The position numbers and the translations under genes were made by a program. DNA of 64,000 nucleotides from positions 5,766,001 through 5,830,000 of the forward strand of contig NZ_CP063458.1 of NCBI RefSeq assembly GCF_015169395.1. Reading direction: 5' to 3'. This DNA comes from Humisphaera borealis. GTDB taxonomy: Bacteria > Planctomycetota > Phycisphaerae > Tepidisphaerales > Tepidisphaeraceae. Below, one piece after another: positions 5,406-21,790 of the stretch. The first letter of the stretch is position 1. The number at the start of each line of letters is the position of its first letter. The notes below the pieces were generated by a model. The model searched no databases and had not been told where the DNA came from. It saw only the letters and a list, made by a program, of their open reading frames with translations.

Positions 5406-6113
5406 TCACTCCGCCGGCCGCAGGTCGCTCGTGTCCGTCGGCAGCTTGTCGGCGTTCAGGTCGGCCCACATCGCGGCCTCGGCGTCGAGCGGGCTCTTAA
5501 TGTTGTACGCCTGAAACGCCAGCATCTCGCCGATGCGGACGGCCAGGTCCACCAGCCGTTCGCCGGCCGCCCAGTGGTCGCCGACGCAGATCGTGGTCGG
5601 ATCGATATTGGGATGGAAGATCGGCGTCAGCATCCGGCACTTGGGGCTGATGCGCGGGTACTCGCTGGTGAGCTGGATCTCCACCTCGTGCAGTTGCCGC
5701 GGCACGGGCTGGTTCGGCTTCTTGCCGCGGTCCAGGCTGTTCACCTTGTACGCCAGCCGGTATAGCTCCGGCGGACTGCCTTCGGTGGAGATCACCCGGA
5801 TGTGCGGCGAGTTGGCGAACGCCGACGCCATCTGCTCGGCGTCGGCCGTCAGTCGGCGAATGCGCATGGGGATTCGGCGGGGCTCGCTCGCGACGGCCGC
5901 TTCCGTCGGCTTCGCAGTCGTCGCCGAACCGCCGGCGACGACCGGCGCGACGGCGGCTGGGGCGAGGGCGTCACCCTCTTTCGGTGCGGGTTCGAAATCC
6001 GTCTGCGGCACGACAACGTCCGAACCGCAGGTGCGGCATTTGGCGCGACGTCCGGCGTCCTGGTCGCGGACGGTGAACGCCCGGGAACATTGGGGGCAAT
6101 TAAAGTGAATCAT
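5406..6113 (-). CDS. Ubiquitin-conjugating E2-like enzyme with N-terminal zinc ribbon
   Basis: A 235-residue protein. Residues 4-36 are a small zinc ribbon (FNCPQC ... AKCRTCG, two CxxC pairs). A Pro/Ala/Thr linker follows (38-78). Residues ~85-222 are an E2 (UBC) fold: EVEIQLTSEYPRISPKCR matches the E2 beta-meander, IFHPNI carries the H-P-N at 167-169, and TICVGDHW places the catalytic Cys at 176, seven residues after the Asn as in eukaryotic E2s; SPLDAEAA matches the conserved 'pln..aa' helix. Role by family: accept a Ub-like protein from the E1 as a thioester and pass it to a lysine. The start at 6113 (MIHFNC) is preferred because the longer reading frame would run into the upstream RING gene. 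It is the last gene of the six-gene set, 65 bases after the RING-FHA gene. Confidence 0.9.
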   Translation of the reverse strand: MIHFNCPQCSRAFTVRDQDAGRRAKCRTCGSDVVVPQTDFEPAPKEGDALAPAAVAPVVAGGSATTAKPTEAAVASEPRRIPMRIRRLTADAEQMASAFANSPHIRVISTEGSPPELYRLAYKVNSLDRGKKPNQPVPRQLHEVEIQLTSEYPRISPKCRMLTPIFHPNIDPTTICVGDHWAAGERLVDLAVRIGEMLAFQAYNIKSPLDAEAAMWADLNADKLPTDTSDLRPAE

Positions 6114-6178
6114 GCGATGGCGTTCCAAGACCTTCGGTCGATGAGCGGTCGCACCGCAGGTGCACCGGCCGATACCGG

Positions 6179-7735
6179 CTACTTTCGACCGTAGAGGAAT
6201 AGGAAATACGACACCGCCGCCCCCGCGGCAACCCCCACGGCCGACAATGCGATCGCGCCGTAGATCGGCCCGGCTTTGCGTTCCGGGTCGGCCTTGCTGC
6301 GAACGAGGTAGAGAATCGACCAGACCAGCATGCACAACGACGCCACGCCGAAGGTAAAGCCACTGACAACCGCACCCACCGCGCTGAGACCGAGCAACAC
6401 AAACTCCCATGGCGTGCGCGGGGGAGACATGTCGATCGTGGCGTCTTCGGCGGTCACTTCAGGTTCGGCCGACGGTTCGGGCTGCGGAGCAAGCGCGTTG
6501 ACCTGCGGACACCCGTACGCCGAACAACCGTAATTCTCCTGCCAGCACTCGACGTGAAACCTGAGATTGCAGGAAGGACATGCCGTAAGCGATTCGCCAG
6601 GAAGGATCGGCGAGTGGCAAACGCCGCACTTGAACTTGCCCGCGACGGCAGGCGGCTCTGTGTAGGTCGCCGGTTCGGGGGCGACGAAGGTGGTCGCGGC
6701 GTCAATGACAGGTGCGGGCGCGGTGATGCCCGATGGCGTCATCCGGGCCGATGGCGGGGCGGCGAGCGTTTGCGTTGGTGCCGGGGTCGGTGCCGGGGTC
6801 GGTGCCGGGGTCGGTGCGGGCGTCACCGGAATGGCGATCACCGGAGATTCGACGACATCTTCCGCTGCGATGACATCGTCCACCGTCGCGGGGGAGGACG
6901 CCGACACCACCGGCGCAGCCGCTTCTGGCGGCAGTGCGAGGCGGTCGGCGGTATGGGAGCTTGTCTGTGACGAACCGATCTCCGAGGGCATCGCGACGGA
7001 CGCATCCGGGGCTTCGCCGGCAGTCGCGGATGACGGCGCGGGGCGATCGGCGGGCGCTGGTTGCTCCTTTGGAGGCGTCGCTACACTCGCCACTGGCTGA
7101 ACTGGCGCGGCCGGGCGGGGCTTGTACTGCGGGATCGGTGCTGGCGGCGCTTGAGGCAGAGTTGCTGCCGTTGTTGCCGCGACGGCTTCGTTGGGCGTGA
7201 TCGCAGGCGCTACAGCTGTGGCGACGACGGCGGCGGCAGCGGAACGCGACGCCGCCGGTGCGTTCACCACCGAACGCGGGATCGTGAATCCTTCGCCACA
7301 GTAGGTGCAAATCCCGCCATGGCCCGCGTACTGCTTGGACGCCCACATCGGCGCACGGCAATGCGGGCAGTCGAAGCGGATGCCGATATCGCGGGCGAGC
7401 ATGACCGGCTCGCGCGGCAGGACCAGCGGTTGTACATCCGCCGGGACAGTGTCACCTGATTGAAACGTCAGTCGAGCCGGCCCGATTTCGATCACGTCGC
7501 CGGCAACGAGCTTGCGGCGTTTGGCGAGGGGTTGGCCGTTGACGCGGGTGCCGGTGCGGCTCCGCATGTCGGTCAGGATAAAATCCGCGCCGCGCTGGTC
7601 GATCCAGGCGTGCATCCGCGAAACGGTCGGGTCGTCGATGATCAGATGGTTCATCGACCGCCGGCCGATGAGAACCCGGGCGGGCAGCTTGGTGCCGCGA
7701 GTCCCTCCTTGATGTTCGACAAGCAGCAGGGCCAT
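6179..7735 (-). CDS. FHA - zinc ribbon - RING-like - membrane protein, candidate E3 ligase
   Basis: A 518-residue protein. Residues 1-92 are an FHA domain (VLIGRRSMNH, SRMHAW, TRVNGQPL: the Gly-Arg, Ser-Arg-x-His and Asn-Gly signature that binds phosphothreonine). Residues 119-153 are a zinc ribbon (FDCPHC ... ICTYCG). A long Ala/Pro linker follows, with PAPT units around residues 300-325. Residues 370-409 are a binuclear treble clef: Cys370, 373, 386, 389, His394, Cys397, 404 and 409, with H-V-E-C-W, matching what I know as the prokaryotic RING family (Prok-RING_1). Residues 444-516 hold two or three membrane helices of the DUF4190 kind. Between UBL/E1/JAB and E2 genes, its best guess is the E3 or scaffold. 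Ligase activity is inferred. PAPT repeats may vary between strains. Confidence 0.85.
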   Translation of the reverse strand: MALLLVEHQGGTRGTKLPARVLIGRRSMNHLIIDDPTVSRMHAWIDQRGADFILTDMRSRTGTRVNGQPLAKRRKLVAGDVIEIGPARLTFQSGDTVPADVQPLVLPREPVMLARDIGIRFDCPHCRAPMWASKQYAGHGGICTYCGEGFTIPRSVVNAPAASRSAAAAVVATAVAPAITPNEAVAATTAATLPQAPPAPIPQYKPRPAAPVQPVASVATPPKEQPAPADRPAPSSATAGEAPDASVAMPSEIGSSQTSSHTADRLALPPEAAAPVVSASSPATVDDVIAAEDVVESPVIAIPVTPAPTPAPTPAPTPAPTQTLAAPPSARMTPSGITAPAPVIDAATTFVAPEPATYTEPPAVAGKFKCGVCHSPILPGESLTACPSCNLRFHVECWQENYGCSAYGCPQVNALAPQPEPSAEPEVTAEDATIDMSPPRTPWEFVLLGLSAVGAVVSGFTFGVASLCMLVWSILYLVRSKADPERKAGPIYGAIALSAVGVAAGAAVSYFLFLYGRK

Positions 7736-7919
7736 TGGGCAAATCGTGGTGGTGTGTTCGAGCGGTGGGGTGGTGGAGTAAAGAAAAGGCTATACGCTGG
7801 CTTTGAATTCGGTGCACCAAGTCTCGGTATCTCGGACCAAGAGAGCCTTGTACGAGTGCGCGAACGCCATGGCGCTATCTTACTCGACTACCCCCGCCAC
7901 GCAGTTACAGCACCGATGC

Positions 7920-9377
7920 TCATCCTTGTTCCTTCTCCATAAACACCAGTTGCGTCGATCCCACCTGGATGCGATCGCCGTTTTTCAACCGTGTTCGGCT
8001 GACGGCTTTGCCGTTGACCAGGGTGTTTACGCCCAGGGGCATGTCTTCGATGTCGAAGCCGTTGGGGACGATGTGGATCGCCGCGTGTCGCTTGCCGACC
8101 TTGGGGTCTTTGAACAGGTAGATCTGGCAGTCGGGCGACGATCCGATGTACGTCGGGTTGCGGTAGAGGATGAACTGCTTGCCCGCGATCAGCCCCTGGC
8201 TGACCTTCAGCCAGCCACTCTTGGCGGCGTCTTCGATCAGGCCGGTGGCCAGGCCCGCGAGCAGGCCGATGGAAATCATCGCCACGAGTTCGGGGATGCG
8301 GGGGTAGTCCTTGACGAAACTCAGTTCGCTGATGGGTTCGAACAGCACGCCGCCGATCAAGCCACCGATCAAGCCGCCGGTCAGGCCGATCGCGAGTTTC
8401 TTCTTATTGCGCATGACGATGCCAGGCGCAAGGGTGAGGAAGATGCCCAGCGCACCCCAGGTCGCGATGGTGGCCAGGTATTGCTGCGTACTGCTGGCCG
8501 GTGAGTTGGCGACGAGTCCCTGGATGCGGCTGGTGACGAATGCCGCCGCGACGCCGCCGAGCAGTCCCAACGCCGCTCCGACCGAGCCATTGACGACCGT
8601 CGCCTGAATGTTGTTCTCGGTGAGCGGAACTGCAATCGCCAGGAGCATTCCCAGGACCACGCCACGCACGCCGTATGCGAGCACATTGCCGATGAACGAC
8701 CGGAGGCTCTCCCGCTCGACGACCGTTTCGGCTTCCTTCTCGCGGGTGGCCGCCATCGTATCGAGCTTCTGAATTTTGGCTTTGTCAGAGAGCGAGTCGT
8801 CGGTCATCACGGCGAAGTCGGGGTTTTCGCGCCGGCCCAGTTCCAGTTCCTTATCGCGACGCGATTTGGCTTCTTCGGGCGTGATTTCCTTGGTCCGCTC
8901 CAGGACGGTGATGCGGTCGAGCATCATTCGCCGGAACTGCGCGTCTACGGGAATGACGGTCAGGGCGAAATGCGGATTCAAACCCCGGCCGTTCTCGACG
9001 GCGTCGGTGATCGAGAGCCTCGCGGTATCGTACTTGAGCGTTCCCTCTTCGGTGAGCTTGATAAGCCTGCGAATGCCGTCGATGCGTTCGACCGAGTCCT
9101 TGCGGATGTCGGCTTTGAATTCGAGGAGGGTGCCCAATCCCCAGGCGAGCAGCCCGCCGATCAGGCCGAACAACGCCAGCGCGAAAATGCTGTTCCGCCA
9201 GAGCGCCTCGAGGGTGCTTGGCGCGGACGCTTCGGTGGGCGCGACCATCGTCTCGTCCATCGCCGCGTACACGCGGTTGCGCGCCAGCGCATCCTGTTCC
9301 TTGAGCCGCTGTTCCACTTTCCGGCTGTTCAGGTCGTCGTAGTTGACGGTGATCTTTTCTGGCGTCTGCTCAGACAT
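7920..9377 (-). CDS. Multi-pass membrane protein with C-terminal FHA domain
   Basis: A 485-residue protein. Hydrophobic segments appear at about residues 62-88 (NSIFALALFGLIGGLLAWGL), 240-300 (YGVRGVVLGMLLAIAVPL; SVGAALGLLGGVAAAFV) and 310-375 (ALGIFLTLAPGIVM; Gly-rich GLTGGLIGGLIGGVLFEP; VAMISIGLLAGLATGLI). Between the first two is a charged helical region rich in Glu/Lys/Arg. The last ~92 residues are an FHA domain (YIGSSPDCQI, VGKRHAAIHI, NTLVNGKAV). FHA domains read phosphothreonine, so the protein can recruit phosphorylated partners to the membrane. It is the fourth gene of the Ub-like set. The gap to the JAB gene (104 bases) holds a palindromic repeat; the gap to the RING gene (184 bases) could hold an internal promoter, but none is convincing. 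Confidence 0.85.
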   Translation of the reverse strand: MSEQTPEKITVNYDDLNSRKVEQRLKEQDALARNRVYAAMDETMVAPTEASAPSTLEALWRNSIFALALFGLIGGLLAWGLGTLLEFKADIRKDSVERIDGIRRLIKLTEEGTLKYDTARLSITDAVENGRGLNPHFALTVIPVDAQFRRMMLDRITVLERTKEITPEEAKSRRDKELELGRRENPDFAVMTDDSLSDKAKIQKLDTMAATREKEAETVVERESLRSFIGNVLAYGVRGVVLGMLLAIAVPLTENNIQATVVNGSVGAALGLLGGVAAAFVTSRIQGLVANSPASSTQQYLATIATWGALGIFLTLAPGIVMRNKKKLAIGLTGGLIGGLIGGVLFEPISELSFVKDYPRIPELVAMISIGLLAGLATGLIEDAAKSGWLKVSQGLIAGKQFILYRNPTYIGSSPDCQIYLFKDPKVGKRHAAIHIVPNGFDIEDMPLGVNTLVNGKAVSRTRLKNGDRIQVGSTQLVFMEKEQG

Positions 9378-9392
9378 AGGGGTCGGTTTCGC

Positions 9393-9478
9393 ATGGCACA
9401 GGCATTCAGCCCGTGCCTTGTTCGCGAGACGGTAGTCCGCGACGGTACTCTTGCGGGCAGGGCTGAACCCTGCACCGG
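9393..9478. repeat. Imperfect long palindrome between the JAB and FHA genes
   Basis: The segment GCATTCAGCCCGTGCC near 9407 is mirrored by GGGCAGGGCTGAACCCTGC near 9457, giving an imperfect hairpin with a spacer of about 35 bases. It sits inside the six-gene set and could attenuate transcription or stabilise the mRNA end. Confidence 0.5.
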
Positions 9479-9481
9479 AAC

Positions 9482-10552
9482 CTAATTCGACCGCAGGGGG
9501 AGCGTCGGGGTGGAATCCCGTGACCGCTCGCCCGAACCCGCCGCAGGCACCGCCGGGCTGGTCGTCGGCGCGTTCGCCTTGGACGGAAGGACCAGCGGCA
9601 CGACGAGCGGCCAGATGATCGCTACCGCCAGCAGGATTGCAAACCCCGCCGACAACAACTTGACTCGAGCTTCCAATACGCCGATTCGCTGGGCCAGTTC
9701 TTCGACGGCCGCCGGCACGGCCGGTGTTTTCGGATCTTCCTGAAAGTCGGTTGGGGACGACAGATACGGAAGTGTCGGGAAGACCGGTTCGGCGGACTTT
9801 CCGGACCGTTCGTCGTCGATCACATAATCAACACGGCGCACCTGGGCCTGACGCCAGGCAAACATCCCCGACTCGCGCGACTGCGGATCGACGACGAACG
9901 CCATCTGCCACGGCGAATTGAAGAAGTGCCGCTGGATGAACAGGTCCATCTCCGACAGGAAGATCCCGAACCCCGGGTGCGTGTGGTACCACGCGATGAT
10001 CTTCTTGCCGGGGTGCTTCTCCTCCATCACCTTATGAATGTGTTGCCATGTTTCGGCGGTGAAGGTGACGGCGGTGCTCCGGCCGCTCGAGGCTTCGCCT
10101 CGGATCGCGCCGTCAATATAGACGAACGACGCCTGCGGGTTCTCGTACACCGTGCCGATCAGGACCCCGCAGACTTCGACGCCCGGGTACTCGTCGCCGT
10201 GGGCGGTGACCTGTTCGAGGACCGCCTTCTTCATGATCGACTGGAACAGCGGGTGATCGGGATCGAGCTTGGGCGCATCCTTCAGCGGTTTGACGGATAT
10301 CGATGCCCGCAGCGCGGCTTCGGCCGAATCGCTGCCGGGCGAGATTGCAGGTTTCGGTCCGGCTACGGCGGGGGCATCGGACCCGACGGGATCGTTCTGC
10401 GTGGCCGCATCCAGCAGCGCCGCGACAGGATCGCCGGTACCGGTCTGGTGTTCATGGGGACGTGCCTGGGGCGCAGACGTACCTCGCGTCGCTGAGGGCT
10501 GGTCGGCCTCGTCGGCGGGTGGCAGCTTGGATGATTTCGGGTCTACGTCCAT
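9482..10552 (-). CDS. JAB/MPN (JAMM) metallo-isopeptidase with C-terminal membrane anchor
   Basis: A 356-residue protein. Residues 1-95 are a disordered-looking Pro/Ala/Gln-rich leader. Residues ~104-245 are a JAB/MPN domain with an intact JAMM motif: Glu126 (GVEVCGVLIG), His190 and His192 (WYHTHPGFGIFLSEMD), Ser200 and Asp203. Family members remove ubiquitin or trim Ub-like precursors, using one zinc. A helix at 302-322 (AGFAILLAVAIIWPLVVPLV) anchors the protein by its C-terminus. The start at 10552 (MDVDPKSS) overlaps the end of the E1 gene by 10 bases, which points to translational coupling; an earlier in-frame start at 10603 would overlap by 61. Role inferred: process the UBL at 11945-12223 or deconjugate it. 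Confidence 0.92.
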   Translation of the reverse strand: MDVDPKSSKLPPADEADQPSATRGTSAPQARPHEHQTGTGDPVAALLDAATQNDPVGSDAPAVAGPKPAISPGSDSAEAALRASISVKPLKDAPKLDPDHPLFQSIMKKAVLEQVTAHGDEYPGVEVCGVLIGTVYENPQASFVYIDGAIRGEASSGRSTAVTFTAETWQHIHKVMEEKHPGKKIIAWYHTHPGFGIFLSEMDLFIQRHFFNSPWQMAFVVDPQSRESGMFAWRQAQVRRVDYVIDDERSGKSAEPVFPTLPYLSSPTDFQEDPKTPAVPAAVEELAQRIGVLEARVKLLSAGFAILLAVAIIWPLVVPLVLPSKANAPTTSPAVPAAGSGERSRDSTPTLPLRSN

Positions 10553-11856
10553 TCCAGTGCCGGTCCGTCCCAAAGGGGTCCCAGAACGTCTTCGGCGTCC
10601 CACGACAGCTCCAATCCTATCGATCGGTTCTCCGAGGCCGTCGCCCCGGAACGCCGCCCGATCAAAATGTCGTAAGGCGGCACGCCGATCTCCGCCGGCG
10701 TCTTGCCCAGAAACGACTCATTCCCGCGAATCTTGTAGAAGGTGACCACGTCACGCCGCACATCTTTCCCGCTTTGCTTGCAATGCGGGCACCAGGCGGC
10801 GTCGGCGGCAACCCGGCCCAGCGACACGAACATCTCCACCTGCTCGCCGCAGACGGGACATGCAAGCTTGTGCAGCACGTCGCGCGGCAACTCCAGTTCG
10901 GCCGTCGGCCCCAGTGCCTTGCGGGCCTCGGCCAATAAATCGGCCAGCGTGATCTCTCCCGCCCGGGCATCCAGTTCCAACACTTCGTCAAGCGTATCGT
11001 GGCTCAGACAATCGTCTTTGCGCTGGAACTCGACGGTGTAAGCCTCGGTGGTAAAGCCATCGAACACCCAGCCCTTGCCGGCGATTGTCGGCAGGCCGTG
11101 CAGCATCTTGACGGCTTCCTGCGTCTGTACGCCGGCAATAATGCTGCTGATCGTCGGGGTGGTGGGTGTTTTGCCGGTCACCATTTCAGCCCGCGACAAA
11201 AGATTGCACGACCGCCGCATCTGCAACAGTCGCCAGTCGGTATCGGACATGGTGCATTCGTAGCACGGGCCGGCGGGGTCGAAAACGCGGGCGGTCCCCT
11301 GAATGACTTCGATCGCACCGTCGATCCAGGGCTTGTTCAACTTCATGCAGGCGCGGTTGATCGACAGCCGGGCCTCGCGGTTGTCGAGGCCGCCGATCAC
11401 CACGTCCGCCCACCGGTAGACGCCAAGCCCCAAGTCGTAAACGGCGTTGGCGACCAGTGCGTGGGTTTTCTGATCGGGATAGATGTCGCGGGCGGCCCGG
11501 GCGGCGGCGACAGACTTGGGTGAACCGTTGTCGCTGGCGCGGTACAGCACCGACCGGGAAAGATTCGAGTTCTCGACCTTGTCGAGATCGACCACCAGCA
11601 CGTTCCCAATCCCCAGCAGGGCAAGATTCTTCAGGATCTCATTACCCAGTGCCCCGGCACCGATCACCAGAACCTTGGCCGCCCGGAGCTTGTTCTGATC
11701 CCACCACCCGATGAGCTTAAAGCGATCGAAACGATCGCCGGATTCGTCGCCGACATCAATACGAATCGGAGCGACGGCCGGCGTGGCGGCGTCGATGCCC
11801 TGCGTCGGCGACGCATCGGTGGGTCCCACGAGCTTGATCTCATCCTTGAGCGACAT
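10543..11856 (-). CDS. E1-like ubiquitin-activating enzyme (ThiF/MoeB/UBA family)
   Basis: A 437-residue protein. The nucleotide-binding GAGALGNE is at 66-73. SNLSRSVLY (97-105) aligns with the E1 SNL-R-Q block that carries the catalytic Arg. GLDNREARLSINRAC (156-170) is the Asp-Asn-Arg block. CYEC at 198-201 is the CxxC found in UBA3 and MoeB, and Cys217 (RRSCNLL) sits where UBA3 has its thioester Cys. Two further pairs, Cys333/336 and Cys356/359, form a zinc ribbon, so there are more zinc-binding cysteines than a minimal MoeB needs. The C-terminal ~70 residues are specific. Family role: adenylate a Ub-like C-terminus, hold it as a thioester and hand it to the E2. ATG at 11856 is preferred to TTG at 11862. 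Confidence 0.93.
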   Translation of the reverse strand: MSLKDEIKLVGPTDASPTQGIDAATPAVAPIRIDVGDESGDRFDRFKLIGWWDQNKLRAAKVLVIGAGALGNEILKNLALLGIGNVLVVDLDKVENSNLSRSVLYRASDNGSPKSVAAARAARDIYPDQKTHALVANAVYDLGLGVYRWADVVIGGLDNREARLSINRACMKLNKPWIDGAIEVIQGTARVFDPAGPCYECTMSDTDWRLLQMRRSCNLLSRAEMVTGKTPTTPTISSIIAGVQTQEAVKMLHGLPTIAGKGWVFDGFTTEAYTVEFQRKDDCLSHDTLDEVLELDARAGEITLADLLAEARKALGPTAELELPRDVLHKLACPVCGEQVEMFVSLGRVAADAAWCPHCKQSGKDVRRDVVTFYKIRGNESFLGKTPAEIGVPPYDILIGRRSGATASENRSIGLELSWDAEDVLGPLWDGPALEWT

Positions 11857-11944
11857 GAGCAAAGAAAAACAAAGAACGCGAGAGCACCGAAGCTCGGGGG
11901 AGGCAGCGGTACGACAGCCCCGTCAGTCGCCGACCCTTGGAAGC

Positions 11945-12223
11945 CTAGACAGTACTTCCAGCTGTGATCTCCGGCTGAAGCCGCAACACATCCCCGTCTT
12001 TGACGCCGACATCCTTTAAAGTTTGATTGTCGAGCAATTGCTTGCCGCTGGCCTTGTGATGGAACTTGTAACTCAGCGGCTGTCCGTCCGGTGCGTACTG
12101 GGGGAAGTTCATTTTATCGAGCAAGACCGCCAGAATCCGGTTCACTGGCGCGTCGTCGGGCATCTCCACCTCTTGGCGCTTTGTCGCGGTGGCGTCCCAG
12201 ACTTGAACCCTGACCAGACTCAT
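11945..12223 (-). CDS. Ubiquitin-like (YukD/EsaB-type) small protein
   Basis: A 92-residue beta-grasp protein. LVRVQVWDATATKRQEVEMP gives the first hairpin, VNRILAVLLDKMNF the helix, and QTLKDVGVKDGDVLRLQP the closing strand seen in ubiquitin and in YukD/EsaB proteins of type VII secretion loci. The tail is ITAGSTV: no Gly-Gly, and only one Gly, four residues from the end. If it is conjugated it either needs trimming (after Ala-Gly) or uses another C-terminus. A GAGG ribosome-binding site lies 8 bases before the ATG. It is the promoter-proximal gene of the six, 88 bases ahead of the E1 gene. No WXG100 or EssC gene is in the window, so a type VII role is less likely here. Confidence 0.85.
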   Translation of the reverse strand: MSLVRVQVWDATATKRQEVEMPDDAPVNRILAVLLDKMNFPQYAPDGQPLSYKFHHKASGKQLLDNQTLKDVGVKDGDVLRLQPEITAGSTV

Positions 12224-12565
12224 GGATGAAACCTCGAAGTACCGGACATTGCAGCACGGCGGGAACGCGAGAAATCGCAGAACACACTTTCGCGTGACGG
12301 ACTATGTACTAAATCTTTCCTGTTTTGACCACCTCGCAGGCGTCAGGCAACGATTCTAACCGCCGGATCTTGCCGGGGATTGGACCGATCGTCCAATAAT
12401 CCGTCCCGAAGGGATTGGAAATCGAGACCGCGCGGGTTGTCCATAACGGGTCTGGCACTGAAAGCCGGAACTCTTGGTGAATGGCGCGCCAGCCGTTAGA
12501 TTGGGGAACTTGAAGGTCTCGGATGACCATCGGGCGGCAGTTTCGAACCGGCCCGCCCAAAGCCG
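12224..12565. other. Divergent intergenic region upstream of the Ub-like operon
   Basis: A 342-base gap between the UBL gene (minus) and the tyrosine kinase gene (plus). It must hold the promoters of both. I see no recognisable operator, hairpin or RNA. A small AT-richer patch near 12300-12325 (TGTACTAAATCTTTCC) could be part of a promoter, but no convincing -35/-10 pair was found. Confidence 0.4.
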
Positions 12566-14836
12566 TTGCTCCTCACAACCGATGCAGATGCATCGGGCCG
12601 CGCAGATTTAGTTGGCTCAGTTGGCGTATCGGGACGGGCCCGGTATGTGGATCTGACGCCGGCGGCCGATCTTGAACACCGGGACACAATCTTGGTTACC
12701 CCTCCCCAATATCAACTCCCCGGCCCCGGAAGCGGTGAGCCTGTCGAATCGAAGAGCCCCAGCGAATGGCTGCTTCTTCTGTTCTGGCGTCAGAAGTGGG
12801 TGCTGATCCTGGCGATGCTGGTCGCCGGCCTGGGAGCGTTTGCGTACCTGCGCGTCGCGACACCACTGTTTACAAGCACCTCCAAGCTCCTAGTGCGCCC
12901 GGCATCGACGATCGTGCTGACCCAGTCGCAGGGCGGGCCGTCGGCGTCGAACGCCGGCAACTTCACGAATACGCAGATGGAAGTGATCCGCAGCGATGCG
13001 GTGCTCTCGTTGGCCGGGGCGATGCTGACCGAAAACACGCAGACGCGTGGGAAGGTTCCGACCCGGACACAGGCGCTGCGGGAAGTGATCGACGTCGAGC
13101 TGGACCGAAACACCGACATCATCGCCGTCACCTCAAAAGACAAGTCCGCCGCCGAAGCCGCCGCCATCACCGACACGGTGGTGAATGCGTACATCAAGTT
13201 CGCCACAAGCCGTCGTGACGTCAGCAGCATGCCCGAGATGATGCAGCGGTACGAGGCGGAGCTCGCCGCCGCTGACAAGGAGCTCAAGAAGAAGCAGGAA
13301 GAGCTGCAGAAGCTCGAGAGCGAACACGGCCCGTCGATTCGTCAGGACGAGCGTAACAGCCTGGAACAGCGCCGGCTCGATTCGCTTAACTCGCAGTTGA
13401 TCACGACGGAACTGGAACTGAAGAACGCCGAGCGCGACGCCGGTGCCGCCCGAAGGGCGCTGGGTCGCATGGCATCCTCACGGCCGGCCGGAGCCGCCGA
13501 CCCGCTTGAGCAGGAAGTCGAACTGGGCATCGCTTCGCCGCAGGAACAGCAGGCCCTTCGCCTTGAGATTCTCCAGGCACAGTCCCAGCTCGGCGAACTG
13601 CAGCAGCGGTACGGGCCGGAGCATCCGTCGGTCAAGACGCTGGAGCGTCGGCTCAAGCGGCTGAACACGATCTACCTGCTCAGCATCGAGCGTCGCGAAG
13701 ATACGCTTCGACGCCAGACCGATCTTCTTCGCACCCAGTACAACGAAGCGAAGCAGGAAATCCTCAAGCTAAACACCCACGCATACGCCTACACCGTGGC
13801 CAGGTCCGAAATGGACAAGCTGCGGCAGATCCGCGACCAGTACGACGCCAAGATTCGCGAGATGAAGCTCGAGCGCGACACCGGCGGTATCTCGATCGAC
13901 GTGATCGATCAGGCCCGCCCGGCCGAGAAGCCCGCGCTTCCGGACCACCGCAAGGTCATGGTCATCGCGATCGCGATGGGCCTGGTCCTTGGCATGGTGC
14001 TGGCGGCGCTGCGGGAATGGCTCGACGACCGCATGCGGTCGGCCAACGAAATCCGCAGCAGCCTGGGCATGCCGCTGCTGGCGGTCATCCCCCAGAGCTC
14101 GACCAAGCGAAGCTTCTCCGTCAGCGGCCAGCGCGTGCTGCTCGACCCGGCGTCCGATGCGGCCGAGGCCTATCGGGCGCTGCGCTCGGCGATTCAGTTC
14201 TCCGCGCCTGCCGGGCTTCGCACGCTGATGATCTCCAGCCCCTGCAGCGGCGACGGCAAGACCACCCTGACGACCAACCTGGGCATCGCCTGGGCGCAGT
14301 CGGGCAAGAAGGTCTGCATCGTTGATTGCGACCTCCGCAAGCCTTCCGTGCATGACGTCTTCTCGATGAAAACGACCGCCGGGCTTTCCACGCTCCTGTC
14401 GGGACGATCGACGCTGGAGAACACGCTTCAGCACACGAGCGTCGGCGGACTGGACGTGCTGCCGTGCGGTCCCGTCCCGGCCAATCCGGCTGAAATCCTC
14501 AACAGCCAGGAGTTCGGCACCACCCTGGAAACCCTCGCCGACAAGTACGATATCGTGCTGCTGGACAGCTCTCCGGTCATGTCGGCGTCGGACGCCCGCG
14601 TAATCGCCGCATCCACCGATGCGACGCTGATCGTCCTGACGGCCCAGTCGGCGCATCGTCGCTCGACCGAGCAAACCCGCGACGCGCTGGAAAGCGTCGG
14701 CGCGCGGGTGATCGGCCTGGTGGTTAACGACATCCCGCGCAAGGGTGCCGGCAACTACGGCGGACCGCGCTCGATGCGCACGCTCGTGCCCGGCCTGACC
14801 AGCCAGGAGTTCGACGTGCTGCAGGCTCGCAAGTAA
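12566..14836 (+). CDS. Wzc/GumC-like polysaccharide copolymerase with tyrosine-kinase domain
   Basis: A 756-residue protein. A Wzz-type N-terminal region has a membrane helix at ~79-98; a long charged coiled coil runs from ~225 to 420 (AAADKELKKKQEELQKLESE); a second helix lies at ~463-482 (VMVIAIAMGLVLGMVLAAL). The cytoplasmic BY-kinase domain has Walker A SGDGKTT (Lys565), Walker A' VCIVDCD (Asp587, Asp589) and Walker B IVLLDSSP at about 662-669. The C-terminus lacks the Tyr cluster of E. coli Wzc (few Tyr, e.g. GNYGG). Role: control chain length and export of an exopolysaccharide. The listed start is TTG at 12566 without a clear RBS; GTG at 12647 is an alternative, so the first ~30 residues are uncertain. 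Confidence 0.9.
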   Translation: MLLTTDADASGRADLVGSVGVSGRARYVDLTPAADLEHRDTILVTPPQYQLPGPGSGEPVESKSPSEWLLLLFWRQKWVLILAMLVAGLGAFAYLRVATPLFTSTSKLLVRPASTIVLTQSQGGPSASNAGNFTNTQMEVIRSDAVLSLAGAMLTENTQTRGKVPTRTQALREVIDVELDRNTDIIAVTSKDKSAAEAAAITDTVVNAYIKFATSRRDVSSMPEMMQRYEAELAAADKELKKKQEELQKLESEHGPSIRQDERNSLEQRRLDSLNSQLITTELELKNAERDAGAARRALGRMASSRPAGAADPLEQEVELGIASPQEQQALRLEILQAQSQLGELQQRYGPEHPSVKTLERRLKRLNTIYLLSIERREDTLRRQTDLLRTQYNEAKQEILKLNTHAYAYTVARSEMDKLRQIRDQYDAKIREMKLERDTGGISIDVIDQARPAEKPALPDHRKVMVIAIAMGLVLGMVLAALREWLDDRMRSANEIRSSLGMPLLAVIPQSSTKRSFSVSGQRVLLDPASDAAEAYRALRSAIQFSAPAGLRTLMISSPCSGDGKTTLTTNLGIAWAQSGKKVCIVDCDLRKPSVHDVFSMKTTAGLSTLLSGRSTLENTLQHTSVGGLDVLPCGPVPANPAEILNSQEFGTTLETLADKYDIVLLDSSPVMSASDARVIAASTDATLIVLTAQSAHRRSTEQTRDALESVGARVIGLVVNDIPRKGAGNYGGPRSMRTLVPGLTSQEFDVLQARK

Positions 14837-15133: not shown

Positions 15134-16462
15134 ATGACAATGCTCGCCGAACAACCCCGAACCGTCTCGCCGCCCGCGGCGAACGGTCAACGCCTGCGCG
15201 TGCTCGTCGGCGCCTACACGCTTTCGCCGGCCCGCGGCTCTGAACCCGGGGTGGGATGGGGAATCTGCCACGCGCTGGCCCAGCACCACGATCTGACGAT
15301 CCTGTGCGCCAAGGGGATGCCCGGCGGGCAGGAGACGGCGTTCGAAACCGAGATCAACGCGTACATTGCCAAGCACGGCCCGATCCCCGGGATGACCTTC
15401 CACTATGTGCCGCGGCCGAAGCTCAGTCAGTGGTTTCAGAAGGAGCGGGAACTGTTTCGGCGTACGGTCTATTACATGGGTTACAAGCGCTGGCAGAAGT
15501 CGGCGCTTGCCGAAGCCCGGCGGCTGCACGCCGAGAAGCCGTTCGACATCGCACACCAGTTGAACATCACCGGGTTTCGCGAGCCGGGTTACCTCTGGAA
15601 ACTGCCCATCCCGTTTGTCTGGGGTCCGATCGGCGGGGGGGCGAATATACCCTTCGCTTACTTCCCGATCATGGGCTGGATGGATCGGATCTTCTACACG
15701 ATCCGCAATCTCACCAACGAAGTGCAGAAGCGCACGGTGTTCCGCTGCCGACGTGCCGCCGCCGCCGCAAGGCACCTCTGGACAGTCGGCCACCAGAGCA
15801 CGCGGATGGTGGAACAGATCTGGGGCTACCCGAGCGAAGTGCTGCTGGAGATGGGTTGCATGCCACGCCCAGACGCCCGCACGCGGGAGCGGGATCCGTC
15901 CCGGCCGCTGCGAATCGTCTGGAGCGCGCTGCACATCGGCCGCAAGGCGCTGCCGATCCTGCTGCGGGCGATGCAGACGCTCGGGCCGGACGCCCCGGTC
16001 GAACTTGCCGTCCTGGGGAGCGGGCCGCTGACGGACCAGTGGAAGGCCGAGGCCGAACGACTGGGCCTGGGTAAGAAGGTCCGATTTACCGGCGGGCTGC
16101 CGTTGCAGGGGGCACTGGACGAAGTCCGCCGGGCCGACGTCATGGCATTTACCAGCATACAGGAGGGCACGCCCGCGGCGGTGCTGGAGGCGCTGTCGCT
16201 GGGCGTTCCACTGATCTGCCACGACGCGTGCGGAATGGGCGTGGCCGTCGACCAAAGGTGCGGCATCAAGGTGCCGATGGTGAGCATAAGCGAGAGTGTC
16301 GCCGGCTTTGCCGCGGCGCTGCGCCGGCTGATAGACGAGCAGGACCTGCTCGGCCGGCTTTCGGCCGGTGCACTGGTCAGGTCGCAGGAGCTCAACTGGG
16401 AGCATATCGGGCGCAGGATCGCCCGTGTCTATCAGGAGATCGCCGCCGGCAAGTCCCGGTAG
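15134..16462 (+). CDS. Glycosyltransferase family 4 (GT-B) protein
   Basis: A 442-residue GT-B enzyme. The N-terminal half has LVGAYTLSPARGSEPGVGW, the glycine-rich acceptor loop typical of GT4. The C-terminal half has RIVWSALHIGRKALPILLRAM (start of the donor domain) and the donor-binding stretch FTSIQEGTPAAVLEALSLGVPLIC, with the Glu (EG-TPAAVLE) that binds the nucleotide sugar. It transfers a sugar from a nucleotide or lipid-linked donor to a growing glycan; the sugar is not predictable. It follows the Wzc-like gene and precedes a ligase/polymerase-like gene with a 47-base gap. Confidence 0.88.
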   Translation: MTMLAEQPRTVSPPAANGQRLRVLVGAYTLSPARGSEPGVGWGICHALAQHHDLTILCAKGMPGGQETAFETEINAYIAKHGPIPGMTFHYVPRPKLSQWFQKERELFRRTVYYMGYKRWQKSALAEARRLHAEKPFDIAHQLNITGFREPGYLWKLPIPFVWGPIGGGANIPFAYFPIMGWMDRIFYTIRNLTNEVQKRTVFRCRRAAAAARHLWTVGHQSTRMVEQIWGYPSEVLLEMGCMPRPDARTRERDPSRPLRIVWSALHIGRKALPILLRAMQTLGPDAPVELAVLGSGPLTDQWKAEAERLGLGKKVRFTGGLPLQGALDEVRRADVMAFTSIQEGTPAAVLEALSLGVPLICHDACGMGVAVDQRCGIKVPMVSISESVAGFAAALRRLIDEQDLLGRLSAGALVRSQELNWEHIGRRIARVYQEIAAGKSR

Positions 16463-16509
16463 CGTTCCCTCCCCTGGCGGAGCCCGGCCGATACGCGGGA
16501 GCCGCCGTC

Positions 16510-17931
16510 ATGAAGCCTCATGCCATTCACGCCGCACGCGGCGCCAACCTTCGGCTCGCCGCCCCCTCCTGGACCAGCCGGGAGTTTGCCGCCCGTTTCA
16601 CACGCACCCGCTTCCCCGCCCCCGAACGCCTCTATCTTTTCCTTGCGCTGATGATCAGCGGCACGGTCACGCTCCCCCAGGTGGTGGAGTTTGGCGGCAT
16701 CTCCGGGCTCGGTTTCTGGACGATCGCCGCCGCCGCCGTGACATGGGGACTTTGGTTCCTCAAGCCTCACGTGCCGACGACGCTTCTGCGGCCGTTGCTG
16801 CCGCTGGGTGTGTTCACCCTGCTGGCATGCGTGAGTCCGCTTTGGGGCAGGGGCTTTGACAGCAACGCGATTCAGCTTCTGGCCGTCATCGTCGCGTTCG
16901 CCGGGTTCATCCTGCTTTGTGCCCGCGAGACCGCCAATCAACGCGACTTTGCCGAAGCGGTGGGCGTCACGCTCGACTTTGCGGCGGTGACGGCGGGGCT
17001 GTTCTACACCTTCACGTTGCTGACGCAGGGCATCGGCGGAGAGCTGATCATCGGCGGCCGTCCGGTGTTCCTCGCCCGCCCGTTCGCGTTGTTTGCGATC
17101 ATCGCCGTCGCCCGGCAGATCGCCCGCTTCCACGCCGGCCAGAAAGCCGGACTGGCGATCGCGATCTGGCTTACCGTCCTGGTGGTCCTCAGCCACTCGC
17201 GGCTCGGCATGGTCACCCTGCTTGCGATGTACCCGGTGTCTTACGCGCTACTGGGCGGGAGAAAAAACCTGGGCTTGGCGGTCCTGATGCTCGTCGGCGG
17301 CGGACTGGCGTTCGCCGGCCTGCTGCTGTCGTCCGACGAGATGTACCAGCGTTTCTTCGGCTACGACGCTTCCCTTCAGGTGGGCGGCGTCGCGATCAAC
17401 GCCTCCGGCCGCACCGCCGCTTGGCAGGCGATGCTCAACGACATCCGCAACCCTCTGCGCCTCTGGTTCGGCGCCGGCGCCGGCGCGGGGTCGGCCTTCT
17501 GCCAGGCCAACTTCCAGAACCTGCCACATCCGCACAACGACTACCTCCGCTACCTCTACGACATCGGCATCTTCGGACTGGCGTGGTTCATGGCGTTTCT
17601 AGCCGTCGTCGTGGTCATGCTCTGGCGGCGCATCATGGCGGCCCGCTACTGCCACGATCCGGTCGCGTTCTCACTGAACTTCGGCACGCTCCTGTCCGTC
17701 GCCGGCGTGGGCATGTCGATGTTCACCGACAACTCCGCGAACTACATCTACGTGATGGCGCCGCTCGGCATCCTGATCGGCGCAACGCTGGGGAAAACCG
17801 TCTCCACCCCCAAGCCCGTCAGCGCCGTCAAATTCCAGCAACAGTTCAGGCCCGAGCCGATTCGTCCGATGCCTAGGCAGACGATCCGGCCATCGCTCCG
17901 CGCGCTGCCGGCGCCCCGTGTCGAGCAGTAA
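16510..17931 (+). CDS. O-antigen ligase/Wzy-like membrane protein
   Basis: A 473-residue polytopic protein with about ten hydrophobic segments. Two Wzy_C family marks are visible: VLSHSRLGMVTLL and, after a periplasmic loop, HPHNDYLRYLYDIGIFGLAWF, which carries the conserved His of O-antigen ligases and polymerases. Start at 16510 (MKPHAIHAARG) chosen because upstream codons overlap the preceding glycosyltransferase. Role: polymerise or ligate lipid-linked glycan outside the inner membrane. Only 3 bases separate its stop from the next glycosyltransferase ATG. Confidence 0.85.
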   Translation: MKPHAIHAARGANLRLAAPSWTSREFAARFTRTRFPAPERLYLFLALMISGTVTLPQVVEFGGISGLGFWTIAAAAVTWGLWFLKPHVPTTLLRPLLPLGVFTLLACVSPLWGRGFDSNAIQLLAVIVAFAGFILLCARETANQRDFAEAVGVTLDFAAVTAGLFYTFTLLTQGIGGELIIGGRPVFLARPFALFAIIAVARQIARFHAGQKAGLAIAIWLTVLVVLSHSRLGMVTLLAMYPVSYALLGGRKNLGLAVLMLVGGGLAFAGLLLSSDEMYQRFFGYDASLQVGGVAINASGRTAAWQAMLNDIRNPLRLWFGAGAGAGSAFCQANFQNLPHPHNDYLRYLYDIGIFGLAWFMAFLAVVVVMLWRRIMAARYCHDPVAFSLNFGTLLSVAGVGMSMFTDNSANYIYVMAPLGILIGATLGKTVSTPKPVSAVKFQQQFRPEPIRPMPRQTIRPSLRALPAPRVEQ

Positions 17932-17934
17932 CTC

Positions 17935-19026
17935 ATGCCAACGCCCCGCGTCAGCTTCGTCCTGCCCGTCTACAACGCCGGACCCTACCTGGCGGCGGCG
18001 GTCGAAAGCCTGCTGGGCCAGACCTTCGGCGACTTCGAGATTCTCGCGATCAACGACGGCAGCACCGACGGCAGCCGCGAGGTCCTCTCCCGCTACAACG
18101 ACTGCCGGCTGCGCGTACTCGACCAGACCAATGTCGGACTCGTTCAGACGCTGAACCGTGGAATTCGCGAAGCCCGCGGCGAGTGGATTGCCCGCATGGA
18201 TGCCGACGACGTCAGCCTGCCCGACCGGCTCGCAAAGCAGACGGCCTACCTGCGGACGCATTCGCAAGTCGCGCTGCTGGGTGCGTGGGTGGCGACCATC
18301 GACGAACAGAGCCAGCCCCTTTCTGACGTCGTGCCATTCCCGGTCACCCACGAAGAGCTGTGGTCCAGCATCGGCCGCCGCCCCTGGGTGATGTGCCATC
18401 CCGCGGTGATGTTCCGCCGGGACGCGGCGATTGAAGTCGGTCTCTATGACCCGGCCTTCAGGCATGCAGAGGACACCGAGTTCTTCGCCCGATTGATGAG
18501 CCGGTTCCGCGCGGCAACGCTCCCGGATGTCGTGTTGCAGTACCGATTGCGGCGTGAAGCCGTCTCCGGGGTGTTCAAGGATCACGGGTACGCCAACGCG
18601 CAGCTTGTGAGGCGCATCATGGAGCGGTGGCAGCCCGGCGAGCCGTTCGCCGCGACAGCACAGGAGCGTGCCGAGGCCGACGCGCGGATCGCCGTCAGTT
18701 CCCGTCGTCGGAGCGCGCGGCAGGCGATGGGGGCGTACTTCTGCAGGGTCGGACGCGAGTGCCTACGCGGCAGCCGATGGAGTGGGGCGGCGATCGCGTA
18801 TCTCAAGGCCGCCGCTTACGAGCCAATGAATCTGGACGGTTACCGCGGCCTGGTTGCCGCTGCGCTTCGCATGGGGTCTGCCGTGGTTCCTGCCGGCGTG
18901 TCGCCCGCGTTTGGAGCGGCGGCCGCGGCATCAGCAGGGACGCCGTTTGCGGTCGCAGGAGATGCGGCCGCCGCGACGCCGTTCTCCCAATCCTCACCCC
19001 CGACGCGGTCCAGGCCCGCCGCCTGA
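17935..19026 (+). CDS. Glycosyltransferase family 2 protein
   Basis: A 363-residue GT-A enzyme. Residues 1-110 show the fold: VSFVLPVYNAGPYLAAAVES, ILAINDGSTDGSREVL and the metal-binding DxD in IARMDADDVSLPDRLAKQ. A WVMCHPAVMFRRDA acceptor region follows. The last ~60 residues (from about 303) are Ala-rich low complexity with no domain, and they overlap the opposite-strand gene ending at 18840 by 187 bases, so the true C-terminus may be functionally unimportant. It closes the plus-strand part of the exopolysaccharide cluster. Confidence 0.87.
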   Translation: MPTPRVSFVLPVYNAGPYLAAAVESLLGQTFGDFEILAINDGSTDGSREVLSRYNDCRLRVLDQTNVGLVQTLNRGIREARGEWIARMDADDVSLPDRLAKQTAYLRTHSQVALLGAWVATIDEQSQPLSDVVPFPVTHEELWSSIGRRPWVMCHPAVMFRRDAAIEVGLYDPAFRHAEDTEFFARLMSRFRAATLPDVVLQYRLRREAVSGVFKDHGYANAQLVRRIMERWQPGEPFAATAQERAEADARIAVSSRRRSARQAMGAYFCRVGRECLRGSRWSGAAIAYLKAAAYEPMNLDGYRGLVAAALRMGSAVVPAGVSPAFGAAAAASAGTPFAVAGDAAAATPFSQSSPPTRSRPAA

Positions 19027-20375
19027 CGGTTGGCGATGCGGACTGCAGCCAGGCCTACGCCGAAGACAGACCAGAACCAGATCCCGCCGACCGGGCCTTC
19101 CAGGAAGACGTCGAAAGTCGTGTTCACCAGGAACGATGCCCAGTACGCAATCAGCACGGCAAAGACCATGACCCATTCCGCGTGCCCCTGACGCTTGGCC
19201 CGCCACCAGGCCATGAGCATGGTGATAAGCCACGACAACTGGACCGCGATCCACAGCCCCAGCGCCGGCACGCCACCTCGCGCCAGGAGCGTCAGGTGGC
19301 CGTTGTGCGGACTTCGCAGGGACTCGTCTGCGTTGACCTGAAAGCCGTCGTCGTTGGCAAGGTTGATTCCGAATCCCTTGCCCTTCCAGAAGTAGGGGCC
19401 CTGAAAGGTGTAGGTCATGATGCTGTCCCACCATTTCAGACGCCACTTCTTGGTGCCCTCGACCAGATCGCTATTGGAGTTTCCGGCGACACTCATCACA
19501 TTCGTGACCAATTGGTCGAATGAAATCTCACGGCCGCTCTGGGAATGCCGAATCGAAATGCCACTGGCCCAGAGCAACCCAACGCCGGCGATCGCCAGGC
19601 CCGTGAACAAGCCGATGGCCCGGCCGCTGGGTGCCAAAATCGAGATGATCAGTGCCGCCATGCAGAACGCGACCATCCCCGCGCGGCCGGACAGGTTGAT
19701 CGCCAGCGCCATCGCGATCATGACCACATGCCAGGGTCGCTCGGTGCGTGTCGCGGAGAGGAAGCAGAACACGCCCGCCAGGTGAACGAGGAAGTCGCCG
19801 CCCTTCACCGGGTTGACCAGCTTGTCACTGATCATGCCCGGGGCGTTTGGCGCGAGGTAGTTGCAGAAGACGAAGAAGAACAACCCGAACGTGAGAAAGT
19901 AGGGGATGTACCGCTTGTACCCCTTCACGACTCGTGCAAAGAGGGCCTCGTCGTCGCCGATCACCCGTGCGATCGCCAATGCCATCAGCCCGTAGCCCCA
20001 GATGACGCCATCGCGCAGCGCGTCAACTTTATAGGTCGAGACGTAAGGCAATGTGCGAAGGGCACCCCATGCCATAAACATCATGAGGATCGCGGCGGGG
20101 ATCGACACCAGCCTCAGTCCCATGAAGGGTGCTGACGCCCAGGCCAGCAGCCCCAGGGCGAGCACGATCTCACCAACGAACACCGGCGGAACCCCAATGT
20201 ACGCTGTCACCTTGCCCACGAGCGCGTATCCGCACAGAAGCATCAGCAGCGCCTGGGTGAACGACAGACTTAACCGCTGACGAGTCCGACGATTGCGCTC
20301 CGAACGCGATGACGGGTCCTTGCCCCGACTGGGGCCGAACGTCGCCGCGACTTCTGTAATCCAAGGGGCTGACAT
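18840..20375 (-). CDS. Second O-antigen ligase/polymerase-like membrane protein
   Basis: A 511-residue polytopic protein, about eleven hydrophobic segments. Family marks: INLSGRAGMVAFCMAALIIS, then the periplasmic loop with NADESLRSPHNGHLTLLARGGVPALGLWIAVQ, where the His of the O-antigen ligase loop appears. The start at 20375 has an AGGA box 6 bases ahead; a GTG at 20438 would add 21 residues. The last ~45 residues are Ala-rich and overlap the converging GT2 gene. It is the only minus-strand gene in the glycan cluster, so it probably has its own promoter in the gap before 20597. Confidence 0.85.
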   Translation of the reverse strand: MSAPWITEVAATFGPSRGKDPSSRSERNRRTRQRLSLSFTQALLMLLCGYALVGKVTAYIGVPPVFVGEIVLALGLLAWASAPFMGLRLVSIPAAILMMFMAWGALRTLPYVSTYKVDALRDGVIWGYGLMALAIARVIGDDEALFARVVKGYKRYIPYFLTFGLFFFVFCNYLAPNAPGMISDKLVNPVKGGDFLVHLAGVFCFLSATRTERPWHVVMIAMALAINLSGRAGMVAFCMAALIISILAPSGRAIGLFTGLAIAGVGLLWASGISIRHSQSGREISFDQLVTNVMSVAGNSNSDLVEGTKKWRLKWWDSIMTYTFQGPYFWKGKGFGINLANDDGFQVNADESLRSPHNGHLTLLARGGVPALGLWIAVQLSWLITMLMAWWRAKRQGHAEWVMVFAVLIAYWASFLVNTTFDVFLEGPVGGIWFWSVFGVGLAAVRIANRQAAGLDRVGGEDWENGVAAAASPATANGVPADAAAAAPNAGDTPAGTTADPMRSAAATRPR

Positions 20376-20596
20376 CAAGATCCTGCAAACAGTGGGCGGA
20401 ACAACTGTTGGCGAGGCTACGCAGACATCGTGATTCACACAACAAAAAAGGCGGGCTGTGTGAACGAAATCACTTGGTTCGAGTGCAAAATGGGACTCCC
20501 ATTACGGTTGGTTCGGTCAGCCGGCAGTCCTGTCGATACCAACGTCATGGCCATTGGCCCGAAGGCCAAGTGCAACGCGGGCTGAGATCCATATCG

Positions 20597-21790
20597 ATGA
20601 ACATCCTGGTCGCCCACAACTTCTACCAACGCCCCGGCGGCGAAGACCAAGTCTTCGCGGACGAGACCTCACTTCTGAAGTCCGCCGGCCACCAGGTGAC
20701 GGAGTTCACCGTCCATAACGACTCGGTCGCCGGGCAGGGGAAACTGGCGCTGGTCGGCAAAACCCTCTGGAACCGCGACACCGCCCGCCAGATCGCCGAC
20801 CTCGTTCAGCGGCACCGGGTCGACGTCGTCCACTTTCACAACACGTTCCCGCTGATCTCCCCGGCGAGCTACTACGCCGCCCGCAGCGCGGGGGCTGCGG
20901 TGGTTCAGACGCTGCACAACTACCGGCTGCTCTGCCCTGGTTCACTTTTCTTGCGCGACGGCAAAGTCTGCGAAGACTGCCTCGGCAAGACCCTCCCCTG
21001 GCCGGGCGCGGTTCATAAGTGCTATCGCGGCGACCGCGGGGCATCGACCGTCACAGCGGGCATGCTCGGCGTCCACCGCATGGTGAGGACGTATCACCAC
21101 GCCGTCGATCGCTACGTCGCCCTCACCGAGTTCGCCCGCGAGAAGTTTTCGCAAGGCGGCTTCCCGCGGCACAAGATCGTCGTCAAGCCCAACTTCATCC
21201 TCGACGACCGTGGCGCCGGAAGCGGAGCGGGCGGTTATGCGCTCTACGTCGGCCGACTCGACGAAGGCAAGGGCATCGAAGTGCTGTTGCCCGCCTGGAA
21301 GCAGGTTCGTGGCGACTTCAAACTCCGCATCCTCGGCGACGGCATGCAGGCGGACCTGGTCCGCCAGGCGATGGCCGCCGACCCGCGCATCGAATGGCTC
21401 GGCCGCCGGCCGATGGACGAGGTCTACGCCAGCATGGGCGACGCCGCGTTCATGGTGCTGTCGTCGGTCTGGTACGAAGGATTGCCCAAGACGGTGTGCG
21501 AAGCCTTCAGCAGGGGCACGCCGATCGTGGCGTCGAATCTTGGGGCGCTGTCAGAATTGATTTCGCACGAGAAGACAGGACTGCACTTCACCCCCGGCGA
21601 TCCGACCGACCTGGCCCGGCAACTGCAATGGGGCTTGGAACACCGTGAGGCACTCGGCGCAATGCGCGTGAACTGCCGCAAGACGTTCGAAGAGCGTTAC
21701 ACCGCGGCGGCGAACATCGGGATGCTCGCAGCGGTGTACGAAGGGGCGATCGCTTCCCGTAGGGTCCGCCTTGGCGGACGCGCCGGGTGA
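20597..21790 (+). CDS. Glycosyltransferase family 4 protein whose end lies in a repeat
   Basis: A 397-residue GT-B enzyme. ILVAHNFYQRPGGEDQVFADE is the N-terminal acceptor loop; ALYVGRLDEGKGIEVLLPAWKQ begins the donor domain; SSVWYEGLPKTVCEAFSRGTPIVAS is the donor-binding motif with the catalytic-region Glu. CPGSLFLRDGKVCEDC is a cysteine-containing insert common in this subgroup. Start at 20597 is chosen at MNILVAHN; the longer frame to 20408 has no coding character. The last eleven residues, SRRVRLGGRAG, and the stop come from the dispersed repeat at 21759, so the original C-terminus may have been replaced. Confidence 0.87.
   Translation: MNILVAHNFYQRPGGEDQVFADETSLLKSAGHQVTEFTVHNDSVAGQGKLALVGKTLWNRDTARQIADLVQRHRVDVVHFHNTFPLISPASYYAARSAGAAVVQTLHNYRLLCPGSLFLRDGKVCEDCLGKTLPWPGAVHKCYRGDRGASTVTAGMLGVHRMVRTYHHAVDRYVALTEFAREKFSQGGFPRHKIVVKPNFILDDRGAGSGAGGYALYVGRLDEGKGIEVLLPAWKQVRGDFKLRILGDGMQADLVRQAMAADPRIEWLGRRPMDEVYASMGDAAFMVLSSVWYEGLPKTVCEAFSRGTPIVASNLGALSELISHEKTGLHFTPGDPTDLARQLQWGLEHREALGAMRVNCRKTFEERYTAAANIGMLAAVYEGAIASRRVRLGGRAG

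Follow-up and report, generated by a model that had tools for sequence, protein, structure and literature searches.

Among bacterial ubiquitin-like (UBL) conjugation systems, those with the best experimental characterization act against phages. RING-type UBL-conjugation operons were predicted by Burroughs, Iyer and Aravind in 2011, as represented in later papers that cite their work (PMC4197634, PMC7159879), the first of which names Planctomycetes, Actinobacteria and Acidobacteria as carriers. E1, JAB and RING proteins and a UBL-E2 fusion have been described in conflict systems (PMC7159879), and for the Bub (bacterial ubiquitination-like) families PMC13373217 reports associations only. The homologous archaeal ubiquitin cascade of Caldiarchaeum subterraneum works in vitro, and trimming of archaeal pro-ubiquitin by a JAMM enzyme has been demonstrated (PMC5654768, PMC6043591).

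Here, we analysed a 64,000-nucleotide stretch of Humisphaera borealis DNA (the window), for which a sequence-only reading had proposed a complete pathway of UBL, E1, E2, JAMM, RING-like and FHA membrane proteins in one operon. Pfam matches, predicted transmembrane (TM) segments and conserved gene order support this set, and we consider it likely that the operon encodes a membrane-organised UBL conjugation pathway.

Organization of the operon

The six genes are collinear on the minus strand in the order UBL, E1, JAMM, polytopic FHA protein, FHA-RING protein and E2, all open where the sequence-only reading had placed them. The UBL gene (11945..12223, minus strand) encodes a YukD-type beta-grasp protein of 92 amino acids (Pfam YukD 7e-14) with a predicted processing end at Gly89, the last residue of a PEITAG motif, and a three-residue tail (STV) after it. 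The E1 gene (10543..11862, minus strand; ThiF 6e-52) codes for a single ThiF/MoeB-type adenylation domain followed by a C-terminal zinc ribbon and a possible UFD-like region, and the next gene for a JAMM/MPN+ protease of the Rpn11-like type with one predicted C-terminal membrane segment (9482..10552, minus strand; JAB 9e-8). They are followed by a polytopic membrane protein with 5-6 predicted TM segments and a C-terminal degenerate FHA domain (7920..9377, minus strand; FHA 3e-11), an E3-like FHA-RING protein (6179..7735, minus strand; FHA 2e-16, Prok-RING_1 2e-5) and an E2 with an N-terminal zinc ribbon (5406..6113, minus strand; UQ_con 3e-9). The FHA-RING protein consists, from the N- to the C-terminus, of an intact FHA domain, a zinc ribbon, a long Pro/Ala linker, a C4HC3 RING-like domain (about residues 370-407) and two predicted TM helices.

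The profile searches suggested for UBC, ThiF, JAB and YukD returned the Pfam families UQ_con, ThiF, JAB and YukD; the UBL, E1, E2, JAB and both FHA domains pass the curated Pfam cut-offs, and the RING lies below. The E1 frame has an ATG at 11856 and also a TTG start, and the JAMM frame has an ATG at 10552 and stays open to a GTG at 10603. The 10-base overlap of the two genes (10543-10552) follows from the ATG starts and is real. Neither Pfam nor PADLOC identifies a CD-NTase among the six genes, in line with the sequence-only reading. The match is far beyond chance, since many genomes share the gene order and the catalytic residues. A fusion or frame artefact was considered and dropped, since the gene order repeats in independent genomes.

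Predicted conjugation and deconjugation enzymes

The E1 protein has one ThiF domain (residues 48-285 of 439, Pfam), and the GAGALG and CYEC motifs and the catalytic cysteine are present. Numbering from ATG 11856 makes this residue Cys217, and numbering from the TTG start makes it Cys219; it is invariant in the aligned relatives, including those from the compact systems described below. The nearest solved structures by profile are UBA7, UBA1 and UBA3 (9e-43), and the predicted model (pLDDT 88) matches MoeB with a Z of 31. At high rmsd, long alignments of the model (VIA) extend to the C-terminal portion of UBA3/SAE2/UBA1, which makes a UFD-like E2-docking region possible, although this is suggestive only.

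The E2 protein carries the HPN motif at residues 167-169 and Cys176, both invariant in 30 aligned E2 sequences; its UQ_con match scores 37 bits (cut-off 27), and its closest solved structures by profile are UBE2C and UBE2N (4e-11). The metal site of the JAMM protein (E126/H190/H192/S200/D203 from ATG 10552, or E143/H207/H209/S217/D220 in the longer frame) is present and invariant. This protein also matches Prok-JAB (4e-7), and its best PDB profile match is RPN11 (1e-19). Across the window-type systems the catalytic cysteine of E1, the HPN and cysteine of E2 and the JAMM ligands are all invariant; the sequence-only reading had made its proposal depend on conservation of the E1 and E2 cysteines in orthologs.

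Many unrelated open frames in the class begin with a match to the E2's N-terminal zinc ribbon (5999-6113), which is a common planctomycete add-on. E2-like proteins are also encoded outside the operon. A protein of 918 amino acids (L003 3844-6600, minus strand; G000:C1 about 5443843-5446599) is a dead E2, its E2-like fold having the HPN kept and a tyrosine in place of the catalytic cysteine, and its relatives in G011 (L065) and G002 (L066) likewise lack the cysteine. Three loci of one other planctomycete family (L114, L117 and L120 in G083, G245 and G190) encode E2-like proteins that carry a zinc ribbon at the C-terminus and have Tyr or His at the cysteine position, with no operon around them.

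The C-terminus of the UBL

The PEITAG motif at the C-terminus of the UBL is invariant in the 16 relatives compared. Five of these proteins (L052, L054, L055, L056 and L140) stop exactly at its glycine, and the remaining ones continue for one to many further residues that are unrelated among themselves. The window UBL has no GG and ends in the invariant AG plus its short tail. Such tails would look like those of a precursor for trimming by the JAMM enzyme, and the pattern is a strong sign, the most telling one in these sequences, that the UBL would be conjugated.

This UBL is the only YukD protein in the whole genome. Its neighbours are conjugation and polysaccharide genes with no EssC or WXG100 gene beside it, in agreement with the earlier statement that a type VII secretion gene is missing, and the identification of the UBL as a type VII secretion subunit was considered and dropped. 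The abstract of the 2011 prediction is said to raise the idea that YukD-like UBLs might be conjugated. The operon analysed here gives a UBL of the YukD type a probable part in conjugation.

FHA, RING and membrane segments

Both FHA domains of the sequence-only reading were found, but the one in the polytopic protein is degenerate, with Ser or Ala for the phosphate-site Arg and Gly for Ser in all 13 sequences compared. The FHA domain on the RING protein, by contrast, retains Ser and His in all 12 sequences compared, Gly-Arg in 11 and Asn in 10 of them. From the residues kept and lost, it can be expected that the FHA domain of the RING protein binds phosphothreonine and that of the polytopic protein does not.

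The RING of the window protein scores 24.9 bits with Prok-RING_1, under the cut-off of 29.1, and homologs from other families score above it (37.8 and 34.4 bits). Its C4HC3 zinc ligands are conserved within the bacterial family. A fold search with the RING model gave nothing at E<=1e-3, and the best rows, all weak, were PHD and RING fingers. A search of the own genome with Prok-RING_4 gave no match, and as no control responded either, this result is uninformative. The FHA-RING protein would join FHA-based phospho-recognition and a RING in one bacterial protein.

Membrane segments were called by hydropathy, with the window UBL run through the same script. Of 13 relatives of the RING protein, 11 have two predicted C-terminal helices. 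Most relatives of the polytopic FHA protein have five to six predicted helices, and a single C-terminal one was called for 17 of 19 relatives of the JAMM protein. No membrane helix was called in the UBL or E1, and none in the E2 of 18 of 19 family relatives. The two FHA proteins are therefore predicted membrane proteins, as had been read, but the membrane segment of the JAMM protein had been overlooked.

Distribution and inheritance

Among 26 genomes of the bacterial family, 18 have both E2 and UBL, one has E2 alone and seven have neither, so that E2 is present in 19 and every UBL-positive genome is E2-positive; E1 was also found in 18. The genome with E2 and no UBL found (G016) is 89% complete. 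The order UBL-E1-JAB-FHA-RING-E2 is complete in nine more family loci and partly seen in others, where contig ends or rearrangement interrupt it. Part of another, diverged copy of the system is present in G011, with UBL and E1 on one contig and RING proteins and E2 on another (L063, L278).

Other planctomycete families have the same core plus one or two more RING or zinc proteins. Their operons include a RING fused to a trypsin-like protease, and a DUF2752 protein follows the E2 (L101 7924-9237 and L109 8086-9459, both minus strand). A second, compact class of operons contains E1, UBL, E2 and JAB in varied order without FHA or RING (L096-L108), and the UBLs of these planctomycete loci mostly end in VAG or IVAG. 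With the split made by UBL E-values, the window-type UBL was found in 14 and the compact type in 15 of 392 sampled genomes, indicating that the two classes are about equally common.

In 14 genomes, distances between E2 proteins follow those between RecA proteins (Spearman 0.78, Mantel p 1e-4), which indicates that inheritance is mainly vertical. Searches for the UBL and E2 on plasmids found none, and those for E1 gave remote matches only.

Linkage to an exopolysaccharide locus

Upstream of the UBL gene, an intergenic region (12224..12565, strand not assigned), presumably with two divergent promoters, separates the operon from a gene for a Wzc-like polysaccharide co-polymerase/BY-kinase (12566..14836, plus strand; Wzz 4e-8, AAA_31 7e-12). 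Behind wzc lies an exopolysaccharide cluster (15134..21790, strand not assigned) with three glycosyltransferases and two Wzy_C proteins identified by Pfam, which is partly conserved in relatives. Among the 18 family genomes with a UBL, a wzc gene directly divergent from it is present in 15 (G000, G001, G002, G003, G006, G008, G010, G012, G015, G017, G019, G020, G021, G023 and G024). It lies 5 kb away in G018 and past E2 in G011, and in G016, the genome with E2 alone, it adjoins the JAMM gene. The operon was read as stand-alone, which fits its complete set of genes; it is not isolated, however, because it is persistently linked to the wzc exopolysaccharide locus.

On the UBL side, 82% of 91 genome pairs share a homologous ORF within 2 kb, compared to 2% on the E2 side and to 10-15% beside recA, where the flanks were shorter (1.2-1.4 kb). 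In a Wzc tree from a short search, with many open forks, the UBL-linked Wzc proteins cluster, requiring 4 changes against a mean of 12.5 after shuffling (none of 500 shuffles was as low). UBL-negative genomes contain only other Wzc lineages and none of the UBL-linked ones, a pattern that the loss of one joined locus could also give. The intergenic regions of 15 genomes contained no shared regulatory motif above shuffled sequence. No wzc was seen near the operon in other planctomycete families, and therefore an exopolysaccharide role cannot be general. The wzc data are evidence of linkage, not of mechanism, and they provide the first testable idea of the operon's role.

Proposed mechanism and alternative explanations

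From the sequences, we infer a pathway in which the tail-anchored JAMM protein would trim the UBL after Gly89 and later could strip it off targets. E1 would adenylate Gly89 and then hold the UBL as a thioester on its catalytic cysteine, from which it would be handed to Cys176 of E2. With less confidence, the FHA-RING membrane protein may act as an E3 that brings charged E2 to phosphothreonine targets recognised by its FHA domain, and the polytopic protein with the dead FHA may be a scaffold or a target. An action on membrane or phosphorylated proteins, as proposed earlier, is plausible because the RING protein joins an intact FHA domain to two membrane helices. More speculatively, the targets in this family might belong to, or control, the adjoining exopolysaccharide assembly (Wzc); given the conjugation pathway itself, we hold such a role to be possible and put it forward tentatively. 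In its most specific form, in which an FHA-RING E3 reads threonine phosphorylation, E2 tags Wzc-like proteins, JAMM reverses the tag and slime or capsule production is thereby controlled, the proposal is rather unlikely to be right in every part. As a hypothesis, a membrane ligase that is directed by phosphorylation and acts on the assembly of exopolysaccharide would be the best testable reading of the operon's role.

The same conjugation machine could instead serve general control of envelope or membrane proteins, with the wzc neighbour representing old synteny without functional meaning. This explanation has a real, if limited, chance of being correct: the system exists without wzc in other families, the operon comes without an accompanying protease or target gene, and the search for an intergenic motif found none in common. 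The wzc linkage is nevertheless far above the background synteny at the same depth, and the absence of the UBL-linked Wzc lineage from UBL-negative genomes also speaks against a meaningless neighbourhood. A function in antiphage defence, with the UBL tagging phage structural proteins as in Bil or CBASS Cap2/Cap3, is suggested by related bacterial E1-E2-JAB-UBL operons that act in defence (PMC10097602, PMC11354881), but is improbable, since the system is mainly inherited vertically and widely kept within the family. In the operon PADLOC found nothing beyond generic E1/JAB similarity and, nearby, one WD40 protein matching a repeat model, with no convincing model in either the operon or its flanks; no convincing defence gene adjoins, and neither UBL nor E2 was found on plasmids.

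It is more improbable still that the UBL acts non-covalently or as a sulphur carrier, like YukD, MoaD or ThiS, and that E1 and E2 do not conjugate it to proteins. The YukD of Bacillus subtilis, from the same Pfam family, is indeed not conjugated (PMC1779556), and the E1 is of the MoeB/ThiF type. However, of the 19 genomes with a UBL or an E2, whose cysteine and HPN are invariant, 18 contain both, the glycine-ended UBL comes with tails and an Rpn11-like JAMM, and no cofactor or sulphur genes adjoin; a sulphur-carrier role was considered and dropped. The conjugation pathway on the membrane would be a vertically kept, seemingly non-defence system with a full predicted E1-E2-E3-protease set. Its strong genomic link to a definable process makes the role of non-defence bacterial ubiquitin-like systems directly testable.

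Comparison with known systems

The operon resembles that of C. subterraneum, whose pro-ubiquitin is trimmed by an Rpn11-like JAMM and whose E1, E2 and small RING protein have been reconstituted in vitro. The archaeal system has a di-Gly ubiquitin, an E1 with two Rossmann domains and a soluble small RING, whereas the window operon encodes an AG-ended YukD-type UBL, a one-domain E1 and a predicted membrane RING with FHA. Bil (BilABCD) likewise has UBL, E2, JAB and E1 as separate bacterial genes. The Bil E1 (BilD) has an inactive and an active adenylation domain, in contrast to the one ThiF domain of the window E1. BilA contains two UBL domains (PMC11354881) and Bil has no RING, whereas the window operon has one UBL domain and a predicted RING with FHA. 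CBASS Cap2/Cap3 is also a bacterial system that combines E1/E2 chemistry with a JAB protease, but it is tied to a CD-NTase and its Cap2 is an E1-E2 fusion, whereas E1 and E2 are separate genes here.

The compact planctomycete operons have homologous E1, E2 and JAB proteins and UBLs mostly ending in AG, but differ in gene order and in lacking an FHA or RING gene. The same differences apply to the cyanobacterial Crinalium plasmid pCRI9333.03, which also has homologous E1, E2 and JAB. Its locus (L143 7992-11469) encodes E1, two small UBL-like proteins, E2 and a JAB whose C-terminus has a hydrophobic segment, and a conjugative transfer gene adjoins.

The operons predicted by Burroughs et al., as described in the papers citing them, likewise combine UBL, E1, E2 and JAB with a RING, here a RING-like domain, in one operon, with Planctomycetes among the carriers. 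The novelty that the sequence-only reading implied for the whole operon was thus too high, because complete planctomycete operons of this kind had, by the same accounts, already been predicted. The kind of system is known and an earlier description of its details may exist; what the window operon adds to it is the FHA-RING fusion with a tail-anchored JAMM, the trimming pattern at the AG end and the link to wzc.
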